This document shows, piece after piece, positions 2,738 through 19,468 of a DNA stretch of 20,426 nucleotides; the first letter of the stretch is position 1; every line of letters starts with the position of its first letter. A model generated the notes under the pieces. It had not been told where the DNA came from and did not search any database. It saw nothing but the letters and a program-made list of their open reading frames with translations. Both the position numbers and the translations under genes were made by a program. The stretch lies in IMG/VR virus record IMGVR_UViG_3300037833_000006, positions 1 to 20,426 of that record; one strand, written 5' to 3'. Source of the DNA: a virus.

Positions 2738-2791
2738 GGTAGGCCGTGCTGGACTTGAACCAGCGACCAAGGGATTATGAGTCCCCTGCTC
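2738..2791 (-). other. Attachment site: 3' fragment of tRNA-Ile2 (CAT)
   Basis: On the minus strand this segment reads as the 3' two thirds of a tRNA. It has the last D-stem bases (GAGC), a paired anticodon arm (GGGGA/TCCCT) with loop CTCATAA and so anticodon CAT, a five-base variable loop, a perfect T arm (GCTGG/CCAGC) and the acceptor 3' strand ACGGCCT with discriminator A. The arms match the bacterial tRNA-Ile2 pattern (lysidine-modified CAT) better than tRNA-Met. Beyond 2791 the expected D loop and 5' acceptor strand are missing, so no complete tRNA can form. The integrase gene begins 137 bases away. This is the typical remnant left when a phage recombines inside a tRNA gene. Confidence 0.75.
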
Positions 2792-2856
2792 CGAGGCGTG
2801 GTTAGATCGCTCTGGACGACCCGGCCCGTTGCCTCTCCTCTGAAATTCGTCTACAT

Positions 2857-2927: not shown

Positions 2928-4232
2928 ATGGCAACCACGCACGGACAGCGGATCAACGAGCTGAAAATCGGCCAGTCGATCGTGCTGGAGAAGATCCCCA
3001 GGGGTGGTTCCCTGGAGGCTCGCCGCCTTCAGTCCGGGGCCGTGCAGATGTACTGGCGCCATACGACCGCTGGCCGGACCGAGCGCCTGCCGATCGGACC
3101 TTACGACCCTCTCGCGCCGCCCAAGTCGCTGAGCCCGAGCACGCGAGGCTATTCGGTGGCGGCTGCTCTAGAAGCCGCACGGGAACATGCCAAGACGGAC
3201 AATGAAACTCCGGGCGGTCTGCGCGCCCAGCGCGAGCGCGAGAAGGCGGCAGCAGAAGCTGAGACCCGAAAGGCGACCGCTCGCCAGAGATATACGCTCC
3301 AAGCTCTCTGCGCCGACTACTGCGCCTGGTTGAAGAAGCAGGGGAAGGCCTCATACCGGGAAGCGCAGACGATCTTCAAGAACCACCTTCTCGAGGCACA
3401 CCCTGACTTGGCAGCAAAGCCGGCCGCGGAAGTGGAAAAGCGCGAGATTGTCACAGCCTTGCGGACGCTGACGGAGGCTGGCAAGTCGACTACCGCGCGA
3501 AAGCTGCGCTCCTATTTGCGAGCGGCCTACGTGTGTGCAGTGCGGGCTGACTCCGACGCAGCCCTGCCCTCCTCCTTCATCGGGTACCAGGTCACAACGA
3601 ATCCGGTCGAGAGCACGGCTGCGATCAAAATGCAGCCGGACAAGAACCCCCTGCCCTCACTAGATCTGAGGCACTACTGGAGTGCGCTCAAGGAGGAGGA
3701 CGGGGTAATTGGCGCCGCCTTGCGCCTGCACGTCCTCACTGGTGGGCAGCGCGCCGCTCAACTCACCCGCCTTCGTAGTGAGGACGTCTCTCCGGACACC
3801 CTGAAACTCCTGGATCCCAAGGGCAAGCGCAACGAACCACGCGCCCACTTGCTCCCGCTTACCCGCCCAATGCGCGCCGAGCTCGGAACCCTGCCGCAGC
3901 AGGGATTCATCCTTTCCACCGATGGCGGCAAGACGCCCATGCACGCGACCAGTCTGTCGACGTGGTCACGACCAGTGGCTGAACGAGCTGGGGTGAAGGG
4001 GTTTCAACTGAAGCGAGTGCGCAGCGGCATCGAGACGATCCTGGCCGAAGCGGGCATCCCTCTGCACATTCGCGGTCAGCTCCAGTCGCACGGCATCGGC
4101 GGAGTCCAGGAGCGCCACTATGACGCTCACGAATACCTGCAGGAAAAGCGCCAAGCGCTTGAAACTCTGTACGACCTTCTGGAGAACAAACCAGCGAAGA
4201 ACGTGAGGCCGCTGCGGGGGGCTACATCATGA
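2928..4232 (+). CDS. int: Tyrosine recombinase phage integrase
   Basis: This 434-residue site-specific recombinase should integrate and excise the element at the adjacent tRNA. The N-terminal 110 residues hold a DUF4102-like arm-binding region, residues about 120-210 the SAM-like core-binding domain, and the rest the catalytic domain. Catalytic residues I can place are Arg275 (GGQRAAQL), Arg365, His388 (QSHG) and the nucleophile Tyr398 (RHYD). The usual His of the HxxR box is Lys362 (KRVR), a substitution tolerated in some phage integrases. The ATG is preceded by AAGGGA at a short spacing. The gene reads away from the tRNA fragment and converges on the next gene. It is intact, so the element may still be mobile. 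Confidence 0.95.
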   Translation: MATTHGQRINELKIGQSIVLEKIPRGGSLEARRLQSGAVQMYWRHTTAGRTERLPIGPYDPLAPPKSLSPSTRGYSVAAALEAAREHAKTDNETPGGLRAQREREKAAAEAETRKATARQRYTLQALCADYCAWLKKQGKASYREAQTIFKNHLLEAHPDLAAKPAAEVEKREIVTALRTLTEAGKSTTARKLRSYLRAAYVCAVRADSDAALPSSFIGYQVTTNPVESTAAIKMQPDKNPLPSLDLRHYWSALKEEDGVIGAALRLHVLTGGQRAAQLTRLRSEDVSPDTLKLLDPKGKRNEPRAHLLPLTRPMRAELGTLPQQGFILSTDGGKTPMHATSLSTWSRPVAERAGVKGFQLKRVRSGIETILAEAGIPLHIRGQLQSHGIGGVQERHYDAHEYLQEKRQALETLYDLLENKPAKNVRPLRGATS

Positions 4233-5412: not shown

Positions 5413-5467
5413 TGCCGCGCCTAGGCTGATCCCCGAACACCCGTGAACCTGACGGGCCGGCGCGGCA
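5413..5467 (+). promoter_or_regulatory. Long stem-loop between early genes
   Basis: Perfect 9-bp arms TGCCGCGCC (5413-5421) and GGCGCGGCA (5459-5467) enclose a 37-base segment. That segment contains an inner hairpin CCCGT/ACGGG (5440-5456). It starts 9 bases after a stop codon and ends 28 bases before the next start. The tail CCTTTC is a poor T tract, so a classical terminator is doubtful. A structured leader, attenuator or RNA processing site are alternatives. Confidence 0.5.
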
Positions 5468-5495
5468 CCTTTCAATCAGGTGCGTAGAGGTGCGC

Positions 5496-13022: not shown

Positions 13023-15109
13023 GTGCGGTCGCCCTCCACTCGCTGACGTCCGGCCTCGAGGCGCTGATTCCCCCGAAGCGGCAGCGCCTGTCCGAGGCGG
13101 TGGCCGAGACGCTGATGATCGACCAGCCGGGCGGGTACACCGGCCTATGGTCGTCGGAGCAGACGCCCTACATGGTGGAGCCGATGGACCGCCTGGCGTC
13201 GCGCCGGCACGAGGCGGTTTGCTTCGTCGGCCCTGCGCGCACCGGAAAGACGATGGGCCTGCTGGATGGCTGGATGGCCTACGCCGTGACGTGCGACCCG
13301 GGCGACATGCTGATCGTGCAGATGTCCCAGGAGAAGGCGCGCGAGTTCTCAAAGGTGCGCGTCGACCGGGCGATCCGGCACTCGCCGAAGCTGCGCGAAA
13401 TGATGTCGGCGCGCGGGCACGACGACAACACCCACGACAAGATGTTCCGGCATGGGATGTGGGTCAAGATCGGCTGGCCGTCCTCGTCGCAGTTGTCCTC
13501 CTCGGATTACCGCTACGTCGCCCTGACCGACTACGACCGCATGCCCGAGAACGTCGACGGCGAGGGCGCCGCGTTCGGCCTGGCGCTCAAGCGCACGCAG
13601 ACGTTCCTCTCCCGCGGCATGTGCATGGTCGAGTCCTCCCCGGGCCGGGAGGTCGCCGATGTGAACTGGCGGCCGGCGACGCCCCACGAGGCGCCTCCGT
13701 GCTCCGGTGTCCTGGGCATCTACAACCGCAGCGACCGCCGCCGGTGGTATTGGCAATGCACGGACTGCGCCGAATGGTTCGAGGCGAAGCCTGGACTCGA
13801 GCTTTTCAGCACCCTCCCACCCGAGGACGAGCTGCTGCAGATGGTGCGCAAGGGAAACCTCCCGGCGCTGGCGAAGCATCACGCGCGCATCGCGTGCCCG
13901 CACTGCGCGACGATCATGGAGCCCGGGCAGAAGCACGCCCTGAACGAAGGCGGCCGATGGCTGGCCGACGGCGAGCGGATCATCGGCGGCGAGGTGACGG
14001 GCGAGGCGCAGCGATCGAGCATCGCCGGCTATTGGCTGGGCGGCGTCGCCGCGGCGTACCAATCCTGGGAAAGCCTGATCCTGCGCTACCTGCAGGGCCT
14101 GCGCGAGTTCGACCTGACCGGCAGCGAGGAGACGCTGCAGACGACGGTGAACACCGACCAGGGCATGCCATTCCGCTCCCGCCTCCTGGAGCAAGGCGAC
14201 GGGCAGCGACCGTCCGATCGGGTCGAGAACCTGCAGCGGTTCGTAGTCCCCGACGAGGCGCGGTTCCTCATCGCCTCCGTCGACGTCCAGGGCGGCAAGG
14301 GCAGCCGTTTCGTCTGCCAGGTGCACGCGGTCGGTCCCGGCCTTGAGCAGTGGATCGTCGACCGCTTCAACATCACCGAGTCGCCGCGCGGCACGAAGGA
14401 GGCGCCGGTGCAGATCGACCCGGCCGGCTTCGCGGAGGATTGGGATGCGATCACCGCGCGCCTGGTGAACGGCACCTACCGCACGAGCGGCGACCGGGAG
14501 CTGCGCGTGCTGCTCACGGTGGTCGACACCGGCGGCGAGGTGGGAACGACGGCGAATGCGTACCAATGGCACCGCCGCCTGGCCGCGCAAAAGCTCGCCC
14601 AGCGCGTGCTGCTGGTGAAGGGTGGCTCGCACAAGGCGGCCTCGCCGGTGACGAAGGCGCAGGCGCGCGACGCCCGCGGCGTGACGATCCGCGATGTGCG
14701 CCTGCACCTGATCGACACGGACTTTTTTAAGGACATCGTCGCCGCGAGTCTCAAGCGCACTACGCCCGGGCCGGGCTTCGTGCACTTCCCGGCCTGGCTG
14801 CCGGCGTCATTCTTCGAGGAGCTTGCCGCGGAGACGCGGGGGAGGAATGGGAAATGGCAAAAGATCCGTGCGCGCAACGAGGCGCTCGACCTATGGGTGT
14901 ATGTCCTGGCCGGCATCTGGGCGCTCAACGCGCACCGGATAGATTGGGCCGACCCGCCGCCGTGGGCGAAGCCGCTGGATCAGAACCCAGACGCTATGCA
15001 GGCGCAGGAGCGGCGCGAAATGAAAGAGGCGCCGGCGCCGGAAGCCGTCGCGAAGGTGCGCCCCATTTTTCGGCCGCAGAGGCCACATGGAGGCGGGAGA
15101 GTGTGGTGA
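13019..15109 (+). CDS. Terminase large subunit, lambda GpA family
   Basis: This 696-residue packaging motor cuts concatemeric DNA at the packaging site and pumps it into the prohead. The N-terminal ATPase has Walker A GPARTGKT (71-78) and a Walker B-type segment YVALTDYDRM near 166-175. A zinc-binding insert is suggested by CTDC (247, 250) and CPHC (293, 296). The C-terminal nuclease region begins about ASVDVQGGKGSRF, with acidic residues as expected for the family. Length and motif order match the GpA type. I chose the GTG at 13019, overlapping the preceding stop; longer versions read through the small terminase in another frame. It is coupled on both sides (GTGA overlaps). Confidence 0.95.
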   Translation: MSAVALHSLTSGLEALIPPKRQRLSEAVAETLMIDQPGGYTGLWSSEQTPYMVEPMDRLASRRHEAVCFVGPARTGKTMGLLDGWMAYAVTCDPGDMLIVQMSQEKAREFSKVRVDRAIRHSPKLREMMSARGHDDNTHDKMFRHGMWVKIGWPSSSQLSSSDYRYVALTDYDRMPENVDGEGAAFGLALKRTQTFLSRGMCMVESSPGREVADVNWRPATPHEAPPCSGVLGIYNRSDRRRWYWQCTDCAEWFEAKPGLELFSTLPPEDELLQMVRKGNLPALAKHHARIACPHCATIMEPGQKHALNEGGRWLADGERIIGGEVTGEAQRSSIAGYWLGGVAAAYQSWESLILRYLQGLREFDLTGSEETLQTTVNTDQGMPFRSRLLEQGDGQRPSDRVENLQRFVVPDEARFLIASVDVQGGKGSRFVCQVHAVGPGLEQWIVDRFNITESPRGTKEAPVQIDPAGFAEDWDAITARLVNGTYRTSGDRELRVLLTVVDTGGEVGTTANAYQWHRRLAAQKLAQRVLLVKGGSHKAASPVTKAQARDARGVTIRDVRLHLIDTDFFKDIVAASLKRTTPGPGFVHFPAWLPASFFEELAAETRGRNGKWQKIRARNEALDLWVYVLAGIWALNAHRIDWADPPPWAKPLDQNPDAMQAQERREMKEAPAPEAVAKVRPIFRPQRPHGGGRVW

Positions 15110-15477
15110 CGACCGCCACGCGCGGGCGACAGGTAGGCCATCCGAAAACGCAGCCGGCAGAGGTGATTGTGCCAGCGGCGCCGATGCGCTCACCGGAATC
15201 GGCGGCACCGTTGCAGTCAGGCGACTTCGTGGATGAACTCCTCGCGCTGGTGGTGTCCATGGCGCCGGAGTTCTCGGCTGCCGTGGAGGCGCAGCGCGTG
15301 GCCGAAGCCATCCGCCAGCGGTTCGGCGGCGAGAGGGTCTACATTCCCCACCGGAAGAACGTCAGCGAGCGGGACGCGGCGATCAAGCGTGATTACCTCG
15401 GGGGCATGCGGTTCGCGGACCTGGAGCGCCGCTACGGGCTCAAGACGCGGCAGTTGATCTACATCATCAAGAGCTAG
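15106..15477 (+). CDS. Mor-like transcription activator
   Basis: This 123-residue protein resembles the Mor/C activator family of Mu-like phages. It has a helical dimerisation region (FVDELLALVVSMAPEFSAAVEAQRVAEAIRQRFGG), then VYIPHRKNVSERDAAIKRDYLGGMRFADLERRYGLKTRQLIYII; the last part is a helix-turn-helix. Family members bind inverted repeats upstream of middle or late promoters and recruit RNA polymerase. The GTG at 15106 overlaps the large terminase stop and has GGGAG 6 bases upstream. Its position inside a head operon, just before a hairpin element that recurs 2.1 kb later, suggests that it acts on that element. Its target is inferred, not shown. Confidence 0.75.
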   Translation: MTTATRGRQVGHPKTQPAEVIVPAAPMRSPESAAPLQSGDFVDELLALVVSMAPEFSAAVEAQRVAEAIRQRFGGERVYIPHRKNVSERDAAIKRDYLGGMRFADLERRYGLKTRQLIYIIKS

Positions 15478-15501: not shown

Positions 15502-15562
15502 GTGCATTCGTTTGCCTTAACCGCTGCACACCATGCGCCATAGCCTCGGCAGCACTGAAAAA
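15502..15562 (+). promoter_or_regulatory. Repeated hairpin element, copy 1
   Basis: This copy begins GTGCATTCGTTTGCCTTAAC and then CGCTGCAC. The outer arms GTGCA/TGCAC and inner GTT/AAC still pair, but three central positions are mismatched or wobble. GCCAT (15537), TCGG (15546) and CTGAAAAA (15555) follow at the same distances as in copy 2, apart from a 2-base indel before the last. It is wholly non-coding, between the Mor-like gene and the gpW-like gene, whose start lies 18 bases beyond it. It is a candidate operator, activator site or RNA element. Confidence 0.7.
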
Positions 15563-15579
15563 CCGTCCGAGGGCGCCCA

Positions 15580-16134
15580 TTGGCTGCTGACATCCCGACC
15601 GTCGAGCCGGCGCAGATCATCGCTGGCGACACCCTGAAATTCCAGATTGCGCTGGGCGACTACTCGGCGAACGAGGGCTGGACGCTCACCTACACACTGG
15701 TCAACGCGGCGCAGCGAATCACGTTCGCCGCCGCCGCCGACGGCTCGGATCACTTGGTGACGGTGGCTGCAACAACGACGGCAGCCTACGCGGTCGGAAG
15801 CTACGACTGGCGCGCACAGGTCAGCAAGGCCGGCGAGGTGTTCACCGTTCGCACCGGCCGCGTGGAAGTCGTCTCCGCATTCGCCGCCGCCACGGATGGC
15901 CGCTCCCATGTGCGCAAGGTGCTCGATGCCATCGAGGCCCGCCTGGAGAACCGCGCAACGTCAGAGGTTCTGGAGTACGAGATCGCCGGCCGGCGCTTGC
16001 GCTACATCCCCATGGCCGATCTGCTGGCGCTGCGCGACAAGTACCGCGCCGAACTGGCGCGCGAGGACGCCGCGGCTGACGTGGCGCGCGGCCTGCCCGA
16101 TCGCCGGAAAATCTACGTGAGGTTCGGCTCATGA
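15580..16134 (+). CDS. gpW-like head-tail adaptor with Ig-like N-terminus
   Basis: This 184-residue protein lies where lambda has W, between the large terminase and the portal. The C-terminal half (VLDAIEARLENRATSEVLEYEIAGRRLRYIP, then MADLLALRDKYRAELARED and IYVRFGS) fits the gpW pattern of helix, beta hairpin and helix. In this family the protein plugs the portal channel so that tails can attach. The N-terminal half (LKFQIALGDY, WTLTYTLVN, YDWRAQVSKAGEVFTVRTGRVEVV) looks like an immunoglobulin-like beta domain and is extra relative to lambda W. The TTG start has GAGGG 7 bases upstream. The last base pairs overlap the portal ATG (ATGA). Confidence 0.7.
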   Translation: MAADIPTVEPAQIIAGDTLKFQIALGDYSANEGWTLTYTLVNAAQRITFAAAADGSDHLVTVAATTTAAYAVGSYDWRAQVSKAGEVFTVRTGRVEVVSAFAAATDGRSHVRKVLDAIEARLENRATSEVLEYEIAGRRLRYIPMADLLALRDKYRAELAREDAAADVARGLPDRRKIYVRFGS

Positions 16135-17606
16135 ACTGGCTGAAACGCGCCCGCGCGTGGCTTCGTCCCCCGCAGGTGCGCCGCTTCGCCGCCGCCCGCA
16201 TCGACAGGCTCTCCGCGGACTGGCTAGCGACCACGCAGAGCATCAACGAGGAATTGCGCGGCGACCTGGACCGCCTGCGCGCGCGCGGCCGGGAGCTGGT
16301 CAACAACAACGACTACGCGCGGCGCTTCCAGATCATGTGCCGCAACAACATCGTCGGGCCGGCTGGCATCCGCTTGCAGGCGCGAGTGCTCGGCATCCCC
16401 GGCAAGCCGAACCAGCCCGATCGCATCGCCAATGCGATCATCGAGGCAGGGTGGCAGGAGTGGTCCGCCGCGTGTGACGTGACCGGCCAGCTCACGCTGC
16501 GCGACCTGTGCGAAACCATCGTCGGCAACCTGCCCACGGATGGCGAGTTCCTGGTGCGGATGGTGCGCGGCGAGCAGGCGGGAAATCGCTTTAACTTCGC
16601 CCTCCAGTTGATCGACGTGGACCGCATCGACACTACGCTGAATCTCGCTGGCGGTAACGGCCGAAACGCCGTGATCATGGGCGTGGAGGTCAACGAGTAC
16701 CGCCGCCCGGTGGCTGTTCACCTCTTCGCTGGGCACCCCTCGGACGGTGTGCACTCCAGTCGGCAGCGCATGCGCCTGCCCGTCGACGAGGTGCTGCACC
16801 GCTTCAAGGTGGACCGGCCCGAGCAGGTCCGCGGGATCCCGTGGATGGCGCCCGGCATGCTGTCGCTGCACCACCTGGGCAGCTTCAAGCTCGCCGCGCT
16901 GCTGGCCGCCGAACACGGCGCCAACCACTTCGGATTCTTCCAGACGCCCGACGGCACCGCGCCCACGGGCTCGCTCAGCGCCTCCGGCGAAATGATCGCG
17001 ACGAGCGTGCCGGGCACCTATGACACGCTGCCGCCTGGCGTCACCTTCCAGGCATACGACAGCAAGTACCCCGACACCGCCTTCGGCCCGTTCGTCAAGA
17101 CGACTCTGCAGCGCATCGCGTCGGGCTGGGGCATCGCCTATCACACCCTCGCCAACGACCTCGAAGGCGTCAACTTCTCCAGCATCCGCGCCGGCACGCT
17201 CGCGGAGCGCGACAAGTGGTCGGCCGACCAGGCGTGGTTCGTCGCCGCGTTCATGGAGCCCATTTTCCGCGAGTGGCTGCGCATGGCCCTGCTGTCGAAT
17301 GCGCTCGTCATGAACAACGGCACGCCGCTTCCCGCGGCGAAGCTCGAGAAGTTCGCGCGCCACGAGTGGCAGCCGCGCCGCTGGGATTGGGTGGATCCGC
17401 TCAAGGATGCCGAGGCGTCGGTGCTCAAGGTCAAGGCTGGCCTGATGTCGCCGCAGTCCCTGTGCGCGTCGATGGGGCAAGACTTCGAGGACGTGCTCGC
17501 GGACATCCAGTCGGCCAACGAACTCGCCAAGCAGTTCGGCGTGGAGTTGGTCGCCTACGAGAGCACCAAGACGCCGGCGCCTGCCGCCGCTCCTCCCGAG
17601 GAATAG
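16131..17606 (+). CDS. Portal protein, lambda family
   Basis: This 491-residue protein is the lambda-type portal. It has the family's N-terminal features: many basic residues, then LRARGRELVNNNDYARRFQIMCRNNIVGPAGIRLQA, followed by DVTGQLTLRDLCETIVGNLPTDGEFLVRMV and the long central helices around GIPWMAPGMLSLHHLGSFKLAALLAAEHGANHFGFF. Portals form a dodecameric ring at one head vertex through which DNA enters and leaves, and they dock the terminase. Length and segment order match the family. The ATG overlaps the gpW-like stop. It is followed by the second hairpin element 8 bases after its TAG. Confidence 0.95.
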   Translation: MNWLKRARAWLRPPQVRRFAAARIDRLSADWLATTQSINEELRGDLDRLRARGRELVNNNDYARRFQIMCRNNIVGPAGIRLQARVLGIPGKPNQPDRIANAIIEAGWQEWSAACDVTGQLTLRDLCETIVGNLPTDGEFLVRMVRGEQAGNRFNFALQLIDVDRIDTTLNLAGGNGRNAVIMGVEVNEYRRPVAVHLFAGHPSDGVHSSRQRMRLPVDEVLHRFKVDRPEQVRGIPWMAPGMLSLHHLGSFKLAALLAAEHGANHFGFFQTPDGTAPTGSLSASGEMIATSVPGTYDTLPPGVTFQAYDSKYPDTAFGPFVKTTLQRIASGWGIAYHTLANDLEGVNFSSIRAGTLAERDKWSADQAWFVAAFMEPIFREWLRMALLSNALVMNNGTPLPAAKLEKFARHEWQPRRWDWVDPLKDAEASVLKVKAGLMSPQSLCASMGQDFEDVLADIQSANELAKQFGVELVAYESTKTPAPAAAPPEE

Positions 17607-17614
17607 CGCGCCAT

Positions 17615-17677
17615 GTGCATTCGTTTGCCTTAACGAATGCACTGCCTCAGCCATGCAATCGGGGCATGGCTGAAAAA
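17615..17677 (+). promoter_or_regulatory. Repeated hairpin element, copy 2 (perfect stem)
   Basis: GTGCATTCGTT and AACGAATGCAC form a perfect 11-bp stem around the loop TGCCTT (17615-17642). GCCAT (17650), TCGG (17659) and CTGAAAAA (17670) follow as in copy 1. Without gaps, 36 of the first 48 bases agree between copies. The end of the element covers the start of the protease-capsid gene (ATG 17666). There is no T run after the stem, so it is not a classical terminator. A short out-of-frame ATG at 17653 stops at 17673, overlapping the real start. Confidence 0.75.
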
Positions 17678-19468
17678 GCAATCCCCGACGCACTGGCACG
17701 GCACCTCGAAAAGGGCCGCAGCGTGCGCGCCCTCCAGGTATCGCGCGAAGCGATCGACGAGGAAGCGCGCACCGCCACGCTCGCCTTCGCCTCGGAGGAG
17801 CCGTATGAACGGTTCTGGGGCGTCGAGATCCTGTCGATCGAGAAGAAGGCGATGCGGATGCAACGGCTGCAGGCCGGTGCCAATCTGCTTTGTGACCACG
17901 ACACGCGCGACGTCGTCGGGGTCGTCGAATCTGTGGAGGTGGGAGCGGACAAGGTCGCCCGCGCCACCGTGCGCTTCGGACGTAGCGCGCGCGCAGAGGA
18001 GGTGTGGCTGGACGTGAAGGACGGCATCCGCCGCAACGTGTCGGTCGGCTACGCCATTCATGCAGCGCAACTGGTCGAGACGAAGGACGGACTCGAAACG
18101 TACCGCGTCACCGATTGGGAACCGCTGGAAGTCTCCCTCGTTTCCGTGCCCGCCGATGCAACGGTGGGCGTTGGCCGCGCGCTCGAAGCGCCGGCCGCTC
18201 CCGTCACCCCCTCCAAGGAAAAATCCATGACCACCGAAGTGCAAACGCCGGCCGCCGCGCCGGTCATCGAAGTCGTTGCCCAGCGCAACCACGCCAAGGA
18301 AATCTCCGACATCGCCAAGTCGATGCCCGGCGGCGCCGAAATGGCGCTCGACGCCATCCAGCGCGGCATCACCGTCGAGCAGTTCCAGCGCGAGGCCATC
18401 GCCAAGCTGTCCACCCAGCCGCTGCCGACTCCCGACATCGGCATGACGACCCAGGAAACGAAGCGCTACTCGGTCCTGCGCGCCATCGCCGCGCACGCGA
18501 TGGGCAACTGGAAGCACGCCGGCCTGGAGCGCGAGACGCACGAGGCGATCCTGCAGCGCGCTGGCCTGGCCGACGCGCCGAACGGCGGCTTCTACGTGCC
18601 CTACGAAGTGCAGAAGCGCGACATGACGTCCGCCGGCGCCTCGGGCTCGCAGTACCTGGTGGCGACGAACAACCTGGCCGGCTCGTTCATCGACCTGCTG
18701 CGTAACCGCGCGCTCGTCGCGCAGCTCGGCGCCCGCATGCTGACCGGCCTGGTCGGCAACGTGACCGTGCCGAAGCAGACTGCGGCGAGCACGGCCTACT
18801 GGCTGTCCACGGAATCCACCGCCATCACCGAAAGCCAGCCGACCATCGGCCAGCTCTCGCTGACGCCCAAGACCGTCGGCGCCTACACCGAGGTGTCCCG
18901 CCTGATGATGATGCAGTCGGACCCCTCCGCGGACGCCCTGGTGGTGGAGGACCTGTCGAAGGTGCTCGCGCTGGGCGTCGACCTGGCGGCCATCGCGGGC
19001 TCCGGCGCCTCGGGCCAGCCGACGGGCGTGCTGAACACCTCCGGCATCGGCAGCGTGACCGGCACGACGCTGGGTTACGCCGGCATCCTGGAGTTCCAGA
19101 CGGACGTGGCTGCTGCCAACGCGCTCGCCGCGAACTGCGCCTACGTCACGACCCCGGCGGTCGCCGCCCTGCTGGCCGCGCGCCAGCGGTTTACCAGCAC
19201 CGACAGCCCGCTGTGGGTTGGCAACGTGCTGGACGGCCAGGTGTCGGGCTTCAAGGCCGCATCCACGAACCAGATGAACGCCGCAACGATGCTGTTCGGC
19301 GACTGGTCGCAGATCGTGATCGGCGAGTGGGGCACCCTGGAGATCGCCACCACCGACGCCGAAGGCAGCAACTTCAAGGCCGGCATCGTCGGCGTGCGCG
19401 CCTTCAAGACCGTCGACATCGGCGTGCGGATCGCGGCAGCCTTCTCCGCCGCCTCCTCGATCACCTGA
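17666..19468 (+). CDS. Fused HK97-type prohead protease and major capsid protein
   Basis: This 600-residue polyprotein combines two head functions that are usually separate genes. Residues 1-180 are an HK97 (U35) prohead protease: conserved LCDHDTRDVVG holds the catalytic His78, and RNVSVGYAI the serine Ser126. A hinge of Ala/Pro-rich sequence follows, then a scaffold-like helical delta region and the HK97-fold capsid domain (GGFYVPYEVQKRDM, NRALVAQLGARMLTG, TEVSRLMMMQSDPSADALV, AGSGASGQPTGVLN). An internal ATG at residue 188 (18227) with AAGGAA 6 bases upstream could yield capsid protein alone. The start has only GGGG beside it, a poor ribosome site, in the shadow of the hairpin element. Most copies of the capsid may therefore come from the internal start. 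Confidence 0.9.
   Translation: MAEKAIPDALARHLEKGRSVRALQVSREAIDEEARTATLAFASEEPYERFWGVEILSIEKKAMRMQRLQAGANLLCDHDTRDVVGVVESVEVGADKVARATVRFGRSARAEEVWLDVKDGIRRNVSVGYAIHAAQLVETKDGLETYRVTDWEPLEVSLVSVPADATVGVGRALEAPAAPVTPSKEKSMTTEVQTPAAAPVIEVVAQRNHAKEISDIAKSMPGGAEMALDAIQRGITVEQFQREAIAKLSTQPLPTPDIGMTTQETKRYSVLRAIAAHAMGNWKHAGLERETHEAILQRAGLADAPNGGFYVPYEVQKRDMTSAGASGSQYLVATNNLAGSFIDLLRNRALVAQLGARMLTGLVGNVTVPKQTAASTAYWLSTESTAITESQPTIGQLSLTPKTVGAYTEVSRLMMMQSDPSADALVVEDLSKVLALGVDLAAIAGSGASGQPTGVLNTSGIGSVTGTTLGYAGILEFQTDVAAANALAANCAYVTTPAVAALLAARQRFTSTDSPLWVGNVLDGQVSGFKAASTNQMNAATMLFGDWSQIVIGEWGTLEIATTDAEGSNFKAGIVGVRAFKTVDIGVRIAAAFSAASSIT
18215..18229 (+). promoter_or_regulatory. Internal ribosome site and start for capsid alone
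   Basis: AAGGAA (18215-18220) stands 6 bases before ATG 18227, in frame with the polyprotein and precisely at the end of the protease domain. This is a better ribosome site than that of the upstream start. Nested starts of this kind (such as lambda C/Nu3) let a phage make scaffold or capsid in excess over protease. Confidence 0.65.

Follow-up and report, generated by a model that had tools for sequence, protein, structure and literature searches.

We report that a virus record of 20,426 nucleotides (the window hereafter, by which the whole stretch of DNA analysed is meant) carries two copies of an element that is very probably an activator-dependent phage late promoter, served by a Mor-family protein encoded upstream. 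We give this reading a probability of about 0.88. The comparative analysis shows, at the level of sequence, how the element is built, that its arms pair, that the copies in one phage have their arms in common, and that the arms are coupled to the recognition helix of the Mor-family protein.

The window contains integrase-like, AlpA-like and replication genes as well as genes for a GpA-type terminase, a gpW-like protein, a lambda-family portal protein and a protease-capsid fusion. The gene for the Mor-family activator (15106-15477, +; 123 aa, GTG start) lies before copy 1 of the element. The first gene after copy 1 is the gpW-like gene (15580-16134, +; TTG start), for which a Pfam search gave no significant match and whose name is that used in the original prediction. 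The portal gene (16131-17606, +; Pfam PF05136, E=2.8e-86) is followed by copy 2 and the protease-capsid fusion gene (17666-19468, +; Pfam PF04586 and PF05065). Between early genes, an int-alpA RNA was detected at 5414-5480 (+) above the gathering score (Rfam RF02996, 43.6 bits). A sub-threshold int-alpA match at 17639-17715 (17.9 versus 35.8 bits) was dismissed as fortuitous, since the genuine RNA of this family is the one at 5414-5480. A tRNA match at 2740-2822 (-) adjoins the integrase-like gene (2928-4232, +); this tRNA is probably the attachment site, with host DNA on its left.

Architecture and recurrence of the element

The original prediction had placed the same element upstream of the gpW-like and protease-capsid genes, and both copies were found there. 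Their first 20 bases, GTGCATTCGTTTGCCTTAAC, are identical (15502-15521 and 17615-17634, an offset of 2113). The 18-mer TGCATTCGTTTGCCTTAA occurred at just two places in the window when up to three mismatches were allowed, both of them copies of the element, and two matches were obtained in 0 of 100 shuffled controls (mean 0.00), which indicates a duplication far beyond chance. As had been described, copy 2 forms a perfect 11-bp inverted repeat, GTGCATTCGTT/AACGAATGCAC, and the 3' arm of copy 1 has drifted at right-arm positions 6-10 with the outer five bases, GTGCA/TGCAC, still intact. The further matches between the copies that had been noted (GCCAT, TCGG and CTGAAAAA) are present, but they are not conserved in relatives and thus look like chance; CTGAAAAA falls in the leader in copy 1 and in capsid coding sequence in copy 2.

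Conservation extends past the hairpin. Each copy consists of a 28-bp dyad, in which phage-specific arms GTNNNNN flank the conserved centre TTGCCTTR, then 11 nt and a -10-like hexamer. The copy 1 dyad at 15502-15529 (+) comprises the left arm (15502-15511), the centre TTGCCTTA (15512-15519) and the right arm (15520-15529), and its hexamer TAGCCT at 15541-15546 (+) would place a start near 15553. In copy 2, whose dyad at 17615-17642 (+) comprises the left arm (17615-17624), the same centre (17625-17632) and the right arm (17633-17642), the hexamer TGCAAT at 17654-17659 (+) would place the start at 17666, the A of the capsid ATG. The site covariance model scored copy 1 at 40.1 bits (E=8.7e-8) and copy 2 at 49.8 bits (E=2e-10). 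Despite the dyad symmetry of the site, its centre is asymmetric, in both window copies and in all related sites.

An exact search of viral contigs with the 18-mer matched no other phage. Since the arms are phage-specific, only a structure-aware search works. We scanned 80 viral loci, retrieved through their portal protein, for a TTGCCTTR centre flanked by an inverted repeat, and found the same element in many phages, with arms that differ between phages and are the same in the two copies of one phage. The covariance model R1 was then built and used to find sites. It detected two sites in most of the 28-41 kb phage records and matched 11 of 12 prophage loci in bacterial genomes unused in building it, which came chiefly from Variovorax and further members of the Burkholderiales. 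Neither a site nor a Mor gene was found in the 7.3-kb head region that was fetched for phage Mica. When genomes were scanned broadly under strict filters, the sole additions were 66-nt matches (L164-L166) that fit the layout poorly.

The layout is common to about 100 sites in about 70 related phage or prophage records, mostly from Burkholderiales. The sites lie before gpW homologues (71), before the capsid gene (43) or elsewhere (2), and complete phages mostly have two with the same arms. The original prediction had suggested searching related prophages for recurrence at these gene junctions and for covariation in the stem; the element recurs at both junctions, and the arm bases covary. The 51 distinct sites align without gaps (arms of ~10 nt, the 8-nt centre, 11 nt, hexamer). 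The hexamer occurs in variants such as CATAGT, GATAGT, TATCGT, TGCAAT and GAAAGT; its last T is invariant in 51 of 51 sites, as is the penultimate A of the right arm. No TTGACA-like -35 hexamer was present at 17+/-1 bp from the hexamer in the sites. The fixed spacing, the invariant bases and the lack of a -35 at 17 bp are the marks of a -10 element combined with a protein-binding dyad. When the hexamer is set as -12 to -7, the dyad extends from about -51 to -24 and is centred at -37.5, and the centres of the half-sites are 21 bp apart. The motif TTGCCT was considered as an ordinary -35 and ruled out, because it lies 23 bp rather than 17 bp from the hexamer. A leader peptide read through copy 2 (MCIRLP and a stop) was also ruled out, as the frame has no start codon in copy 1.

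Arm covariation was evaluated on 32 sites. Arm cells were paired in 78.5% of cases versus 55.3% after shuffling, a percentage biased upward because the first sites were chosen partly by the central motif and stems. The covariation score was 0.587 versus 0.187 for shuffled arms and at most 0.225 for slid controls. Several lines of evidence were not selected by stems: the matches in prophages and genomes, the arm sharing within phages, the linkage to Mor, the recognition rules, the tree test and the prophage L159 (see below). Identity of the arms at positions 3-7 was 0.91 within a phage versus 0.49 between phages (0 of 5000 permutations).

Several records depart from the common layout. Records G009 and G010 apparently have three sites each, one of them low-scoring, with an extra site ~4.2 kb downstream of the capsid gene (L106 15451-15508 (-) and 19750-19807 (-), L107 6282-6339 (-), and likewise L108/L109). 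In L042 (record G017), sites before gpW and capsid have the variant arms ATTCCC/GGGAAC around GTTTTGTAGGYGGT and the hexamer TGCAAT; the model missed them, and an R at helix column -3 is still paired with C at arm position 5. The closest portal relatives (L003, L004 and L005) encode Mor (..LSPAQIWRIV) but have a different repeat pair, around GCTCACGTAGCGGATG, before gpW and capsid, and their capsid gene is preceded by the same TGCAAT, 6 nt and ATG. These repeats are possibly a second site type; the presence of Mor beside other repeats was counted against the promoter reading. A single GTGACAT-type site was observed in L158 (7533-7590, -) and in L160 (7871-7928, +), inside an island of integrase, AlpA and replication genes; homologues of Mor, terminase or capsid were not found within ~7 kb of the site. 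The islands could be phage satellites that borrow the activator of a helper phage.

Coupling of the arms to the recognition helix

Profile comparisons identify the protein encoded at 15106-15477 as a member of the Mor family. It matched Pfam PF08765 with 33.9 bits (curated cut-off 24.9), and 36 of the 37 members of the alignment, which comprises the window protein and those of other loci, matched this family at E<=0.001. HHalign of the protein group gave 96.1% to Mu Mor and 86.2% to Mu C, and the profile match to PDB 1rr7/9l0y had E=1.4e-4. Both the profiles and an AF2 model revealed a C-terminal helix-turn-helix resembling that of Mu Mor; the model contains helices at residues 88-98, 103-110 and 114-122, the HTH is confident, and residues 114-122 form the recognition helix. 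As to the N-terminal dimerisation domain and beta-strand linker of the family, a GGDRxYI-type motif is present, but the AF2 model shows no strand and its N-terminal half is of low confidence (blockwise pLDDT values of 59-82), which was counted against the promoter reading. Structural matches of the predicted protein were weak (Z ~3), and tblastn of the window's Mor protein against named phages gave no match at E<=1e-3. Most loci encode a Mor-family protein, in many cases directly ahead of copy 1, and one family member per phage was found.

We paired the arms with the Mor protein of the same phage in 70 records, which form 28 clusters. Helix column -3 (Y119 in the window) corresponded to arm position 5 with zero exceptions among the 28 clusters: Q with A in 8, R with C in 12, E with G in 5, K with A in 2, and Y with A in 1. 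Column -7 (R115 in the window) corresponded to arm position 3, R occurring with G in 15 of 15 cases, S mostly with C, and V with T. This column is partly ambiguous, as S is found with C or G, T with A or T, and A with C or A, which counts against the reading. The pairings of Q with A, of R with C (guanine on the opposite strand) and of E with G (cytosine on the opposite strand) would be chemically sensible contacts. Whatever the clustering level, the couplings of columns -3 and -7 ranked above those of all other protein columns. In the window, whose arms are GTGCA(TT), R115 with G3 agrees with the rule; Y119 with A5 is the sole Y in the set (n=1) and was counted against.

In partial Mantel analysis, the correlation between arm and helix given the body of the protein was 0.50 (0/2000), whereas that between arm and body given the helix was -0.02. 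When residue and base were mapped as a joint label on a tree built from the remainder of the protein, 12 changes were required, as many as for the residue alone; the base changed 10 times, and none of these changes calls for an additional step. The near-identical L058 (ARLWQII, GTCTAGT) and L128 (ARLWEII, GTCTGGT) differ by Q to E in the helix together with A to G in the arm, and the same swap distinguishes L046 from G008. An independent test was provided by L159, a diverged prophage found via the site model and not via the portal, which is only 27% identical; its Mor gene lies directly upstream, its helix has A and R at the two coupled columns, and its arms are GTCTCA as predicted. The left arm of L133, GCGACAC, with its register set by the central motif, also fits the rule, as a consistent case and not as a blind test. 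These correspondences suggest that the arms can be predicted from the recognition helix of the activator, and that site and helix change together by simple rules.

Proposed mechanism and alternative explanations

We propose that the Mor-family protein would bind as a multimer to the 28-bp dyad, which covers about -51 to -24. Its C-terminal recognition helices would sit on the outer half-sites GTNNNNN, which are separated by two helical turns. The bound activator, replacing a -35, would recruit or isomerise the host RNA polymerase, presumably the sigma-70 enzyme, at the -10-like hexamer 11 bp downstream, and would do so late in infection. The centre TTGCCTTR may act through spacer distortion, contact with a second dimer or contact with sigma. 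Copy 1 would start the gpW-portal transcript. Its weak hexamer TAGCCT and the drift of its right arm count against the promoter reading; since the drift is confined to positions 6-10, outside the most strongly coupled positions, binding to copy 1 is probably retained, though it may be weakened.

From copy 2, the protease-capsid transcript would begin at the A of the ATG or next to it. The ATG follows the hexamer by 6-8 nt in 31 of 33 capsid copies (6 nt in the window), so the transcript should start at the ATG or within 1-2 bases of it. A Shine-Dalgarno match of at least 4 was found for 3 of 33 capsid genes versus 31 of 46 portal genes, and the window capsid gene at 17666 has no Shine-Dalgarno match. 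The capsid mRNA is thus predicted to be leaderless. A second inverted repeat at 17647-17673 (+), 10 bp long, surrounds the -10 with its arms TCAGCCATGC (17647-17656) and GCATGGCTGA (17664-17673), of which the 3' arm holds the capsid ATG. The corresponding stem averaged 4.47 bp in capsid copies versus 3.25+/-0.16 bp after shuffling (0/500), and was much weaker in gpW copies (3.42 versus 3.13, p=0.024). We tentatively suggest, at somewhat less than even odds, that the capsid copy is a two-layer switch, in which read-through RNA would hide the ATG and the leaderless activator-driven transcript would not, so that capsid would be made only when the activator fires. The promoter's own transcript would be unblocked because it starts at the ATG and lacks the 5' arm of the second repeat.

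The original prediction had argued for a functional unit rather than chance, and had named a promoter or operator, an RNA control element, and a small mobile repeat as candidates. The present results support the first and disfavour the other two. Whether the protein activates or represses bears on the first candidate itself. The dyad could serve as an operator through which a promoter is repressed or fine-tuned, by the Mor-family protein or by some other protein of the phage: it overlaps the -35 region, and the coupling of arms and helix would indicate binding, not the sign of its effect. However, a promoter with no -35 hexamer at 17+/-1 bp should be weak unaided, and Mu Mor and C activate at dyads in this place (PMC4287176, PMC4461284). 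Repression is therefore improbable, and activation is the reading that we prefer.

An RNA control element, in which the hairpins would act in mRNA through translation control, processing or protein binding with TTGCCTTR recognised as a constant loop, would account for a variable stem with compensatory changes around a constant loop, for the position near a start codon and for the second stem at the capsid start codon. The composition of the pairs speaks otherwise. Of the 209 standard pairs counted at the seven outermost pair positions, only about 3 were G-U, and this near-absence favours DNA symmetry over an RNA stem. Moreover, the arms are common within a phage and appear to be set by a DNA-binding helix, the predicted start site lies downstream of the dyad, the spacing of the dyad is fixed to the -10-like hexamer and not to the ATG, whose distance varies in gpW copies, and neither copy reaches the gathering score of any Rfam family. 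We consider an RNA element very improbable.

The chance that the element is a small mobile repeat or a module-boundary sequence kept for recombination between phages is negligible: although direct repeats flank the gpW-portal module and the arms are homogenised within a phage, whole-genome scans gave just 2-4 matches in each of six genomes and 36 of 40 Variovorax-genus genomes have no copy, so that it is not a host repeat, the copies are mostly two and stand at gene starts, and the -10 and the arm-helix coupling would be left unexplained.

Comparison with known systems

Mor-type promoters are already known from phage Mu, on which the mechanistic work on Mor and C in the open literature searched was carried out. 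Our searches of the open-access literature brought up no previous account of such sites, of a recognition code for the Mor family or of a leaderless capsid mRNA; on this provisional basis, the geometry, the recognition rules and the leaderless capsid start appear to be new. The data suggest that, in a large group of Burkholderiales phages, the head genes are under a single Mor-type activator with precisely defined promoters, and they supply about ten independent natural changes of specificity, matched on the protein and the site sides. Three questions thereby become testable: the way in which DNA is read by Mor-family helices, the joint re-specification of a regulator and of all its promoters by phages, and whether the mRNA translated into the major capsid protein is leaderless. 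Late-gene promoters of uncultured phages could be annotated from sequence. If the two-layer switch is true, it would provide, with the helix-arm rules, a natural set of activator-promoter pairs whose cross-talk is predictable from sequence.

The Mu Pm promoter has a -10 and no -35, and its Mor site is a 16-bp dyad from -51 to -36, with 5-bp repeats, a 6-bp spacer and the centre at -43.5, that replaces the -35 (PMC4390567, PMC4287176). Its activator belongs to the same Pfam family, PF08765 (PDB 1rr7, 9l0y), and mor lies directly before Pm as the gene at 15106-15477 lies before copy 1. In both systems the dyad begins at -51 and stands in for the -35. Like Mor/C-dependent promoters, the present sites combine a dyad in place of the -35, a -10 hexamer and, as the coupling suggests, recognition by the helix of the linked protein. 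In contrast to the 5-6-5 geometry of Mu, which window-type sites do not have, the dyad here is 28 bp long, is centred near -37.5 and extends to -24, with outer half-sites two turns apart and a conserved asymmetric centre; this departure from Mu Pm was counted against the promoter reading. The site model gave no match in the Mu Pm/Plys region. The solved initiation complexes of Mu Mor and C contain four activator chains each (9l0y, 9l0x, by chain counts and titles), and in a comparison by chain counts, a tetramer on the longer site is plausible. The present sites also differ from Mu in serving the head genes of an integrase-type phage with a lambda-family portal and terminase, usually twice per genome.

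Mu C (PDB 9l0x, 9vw8) serves four late promoters, lys, I, P and mom (PMC4461284), and resembles the present system in that one Mor/C-family activator serves several late promoters with similar dyads (PMC4461284, PMC4287176). Here, however, no middle-late cascade was seen, promoters are mostly two, the capsid start is predicted to be leaderless, and the arms are re-specified from phage to phage. The capsid copy also recalls the T4 genes e, soc, 49 and I-TevI, in which late translation is gated by a hairpin (PMC3014915): an inverted repeat lies at the start codon with its 5' arm at the promoter, and only read-through RNA forms the blocking stem. Unlike in T4, the arrangement here is deduced from sequence, the -10 lies in the loop, the start would be leaderless, and the promoter is of the Mor type and not a T4 late promoter. 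As far as sequence comparison can tell, the site is a Mor-type promoter in a new form.
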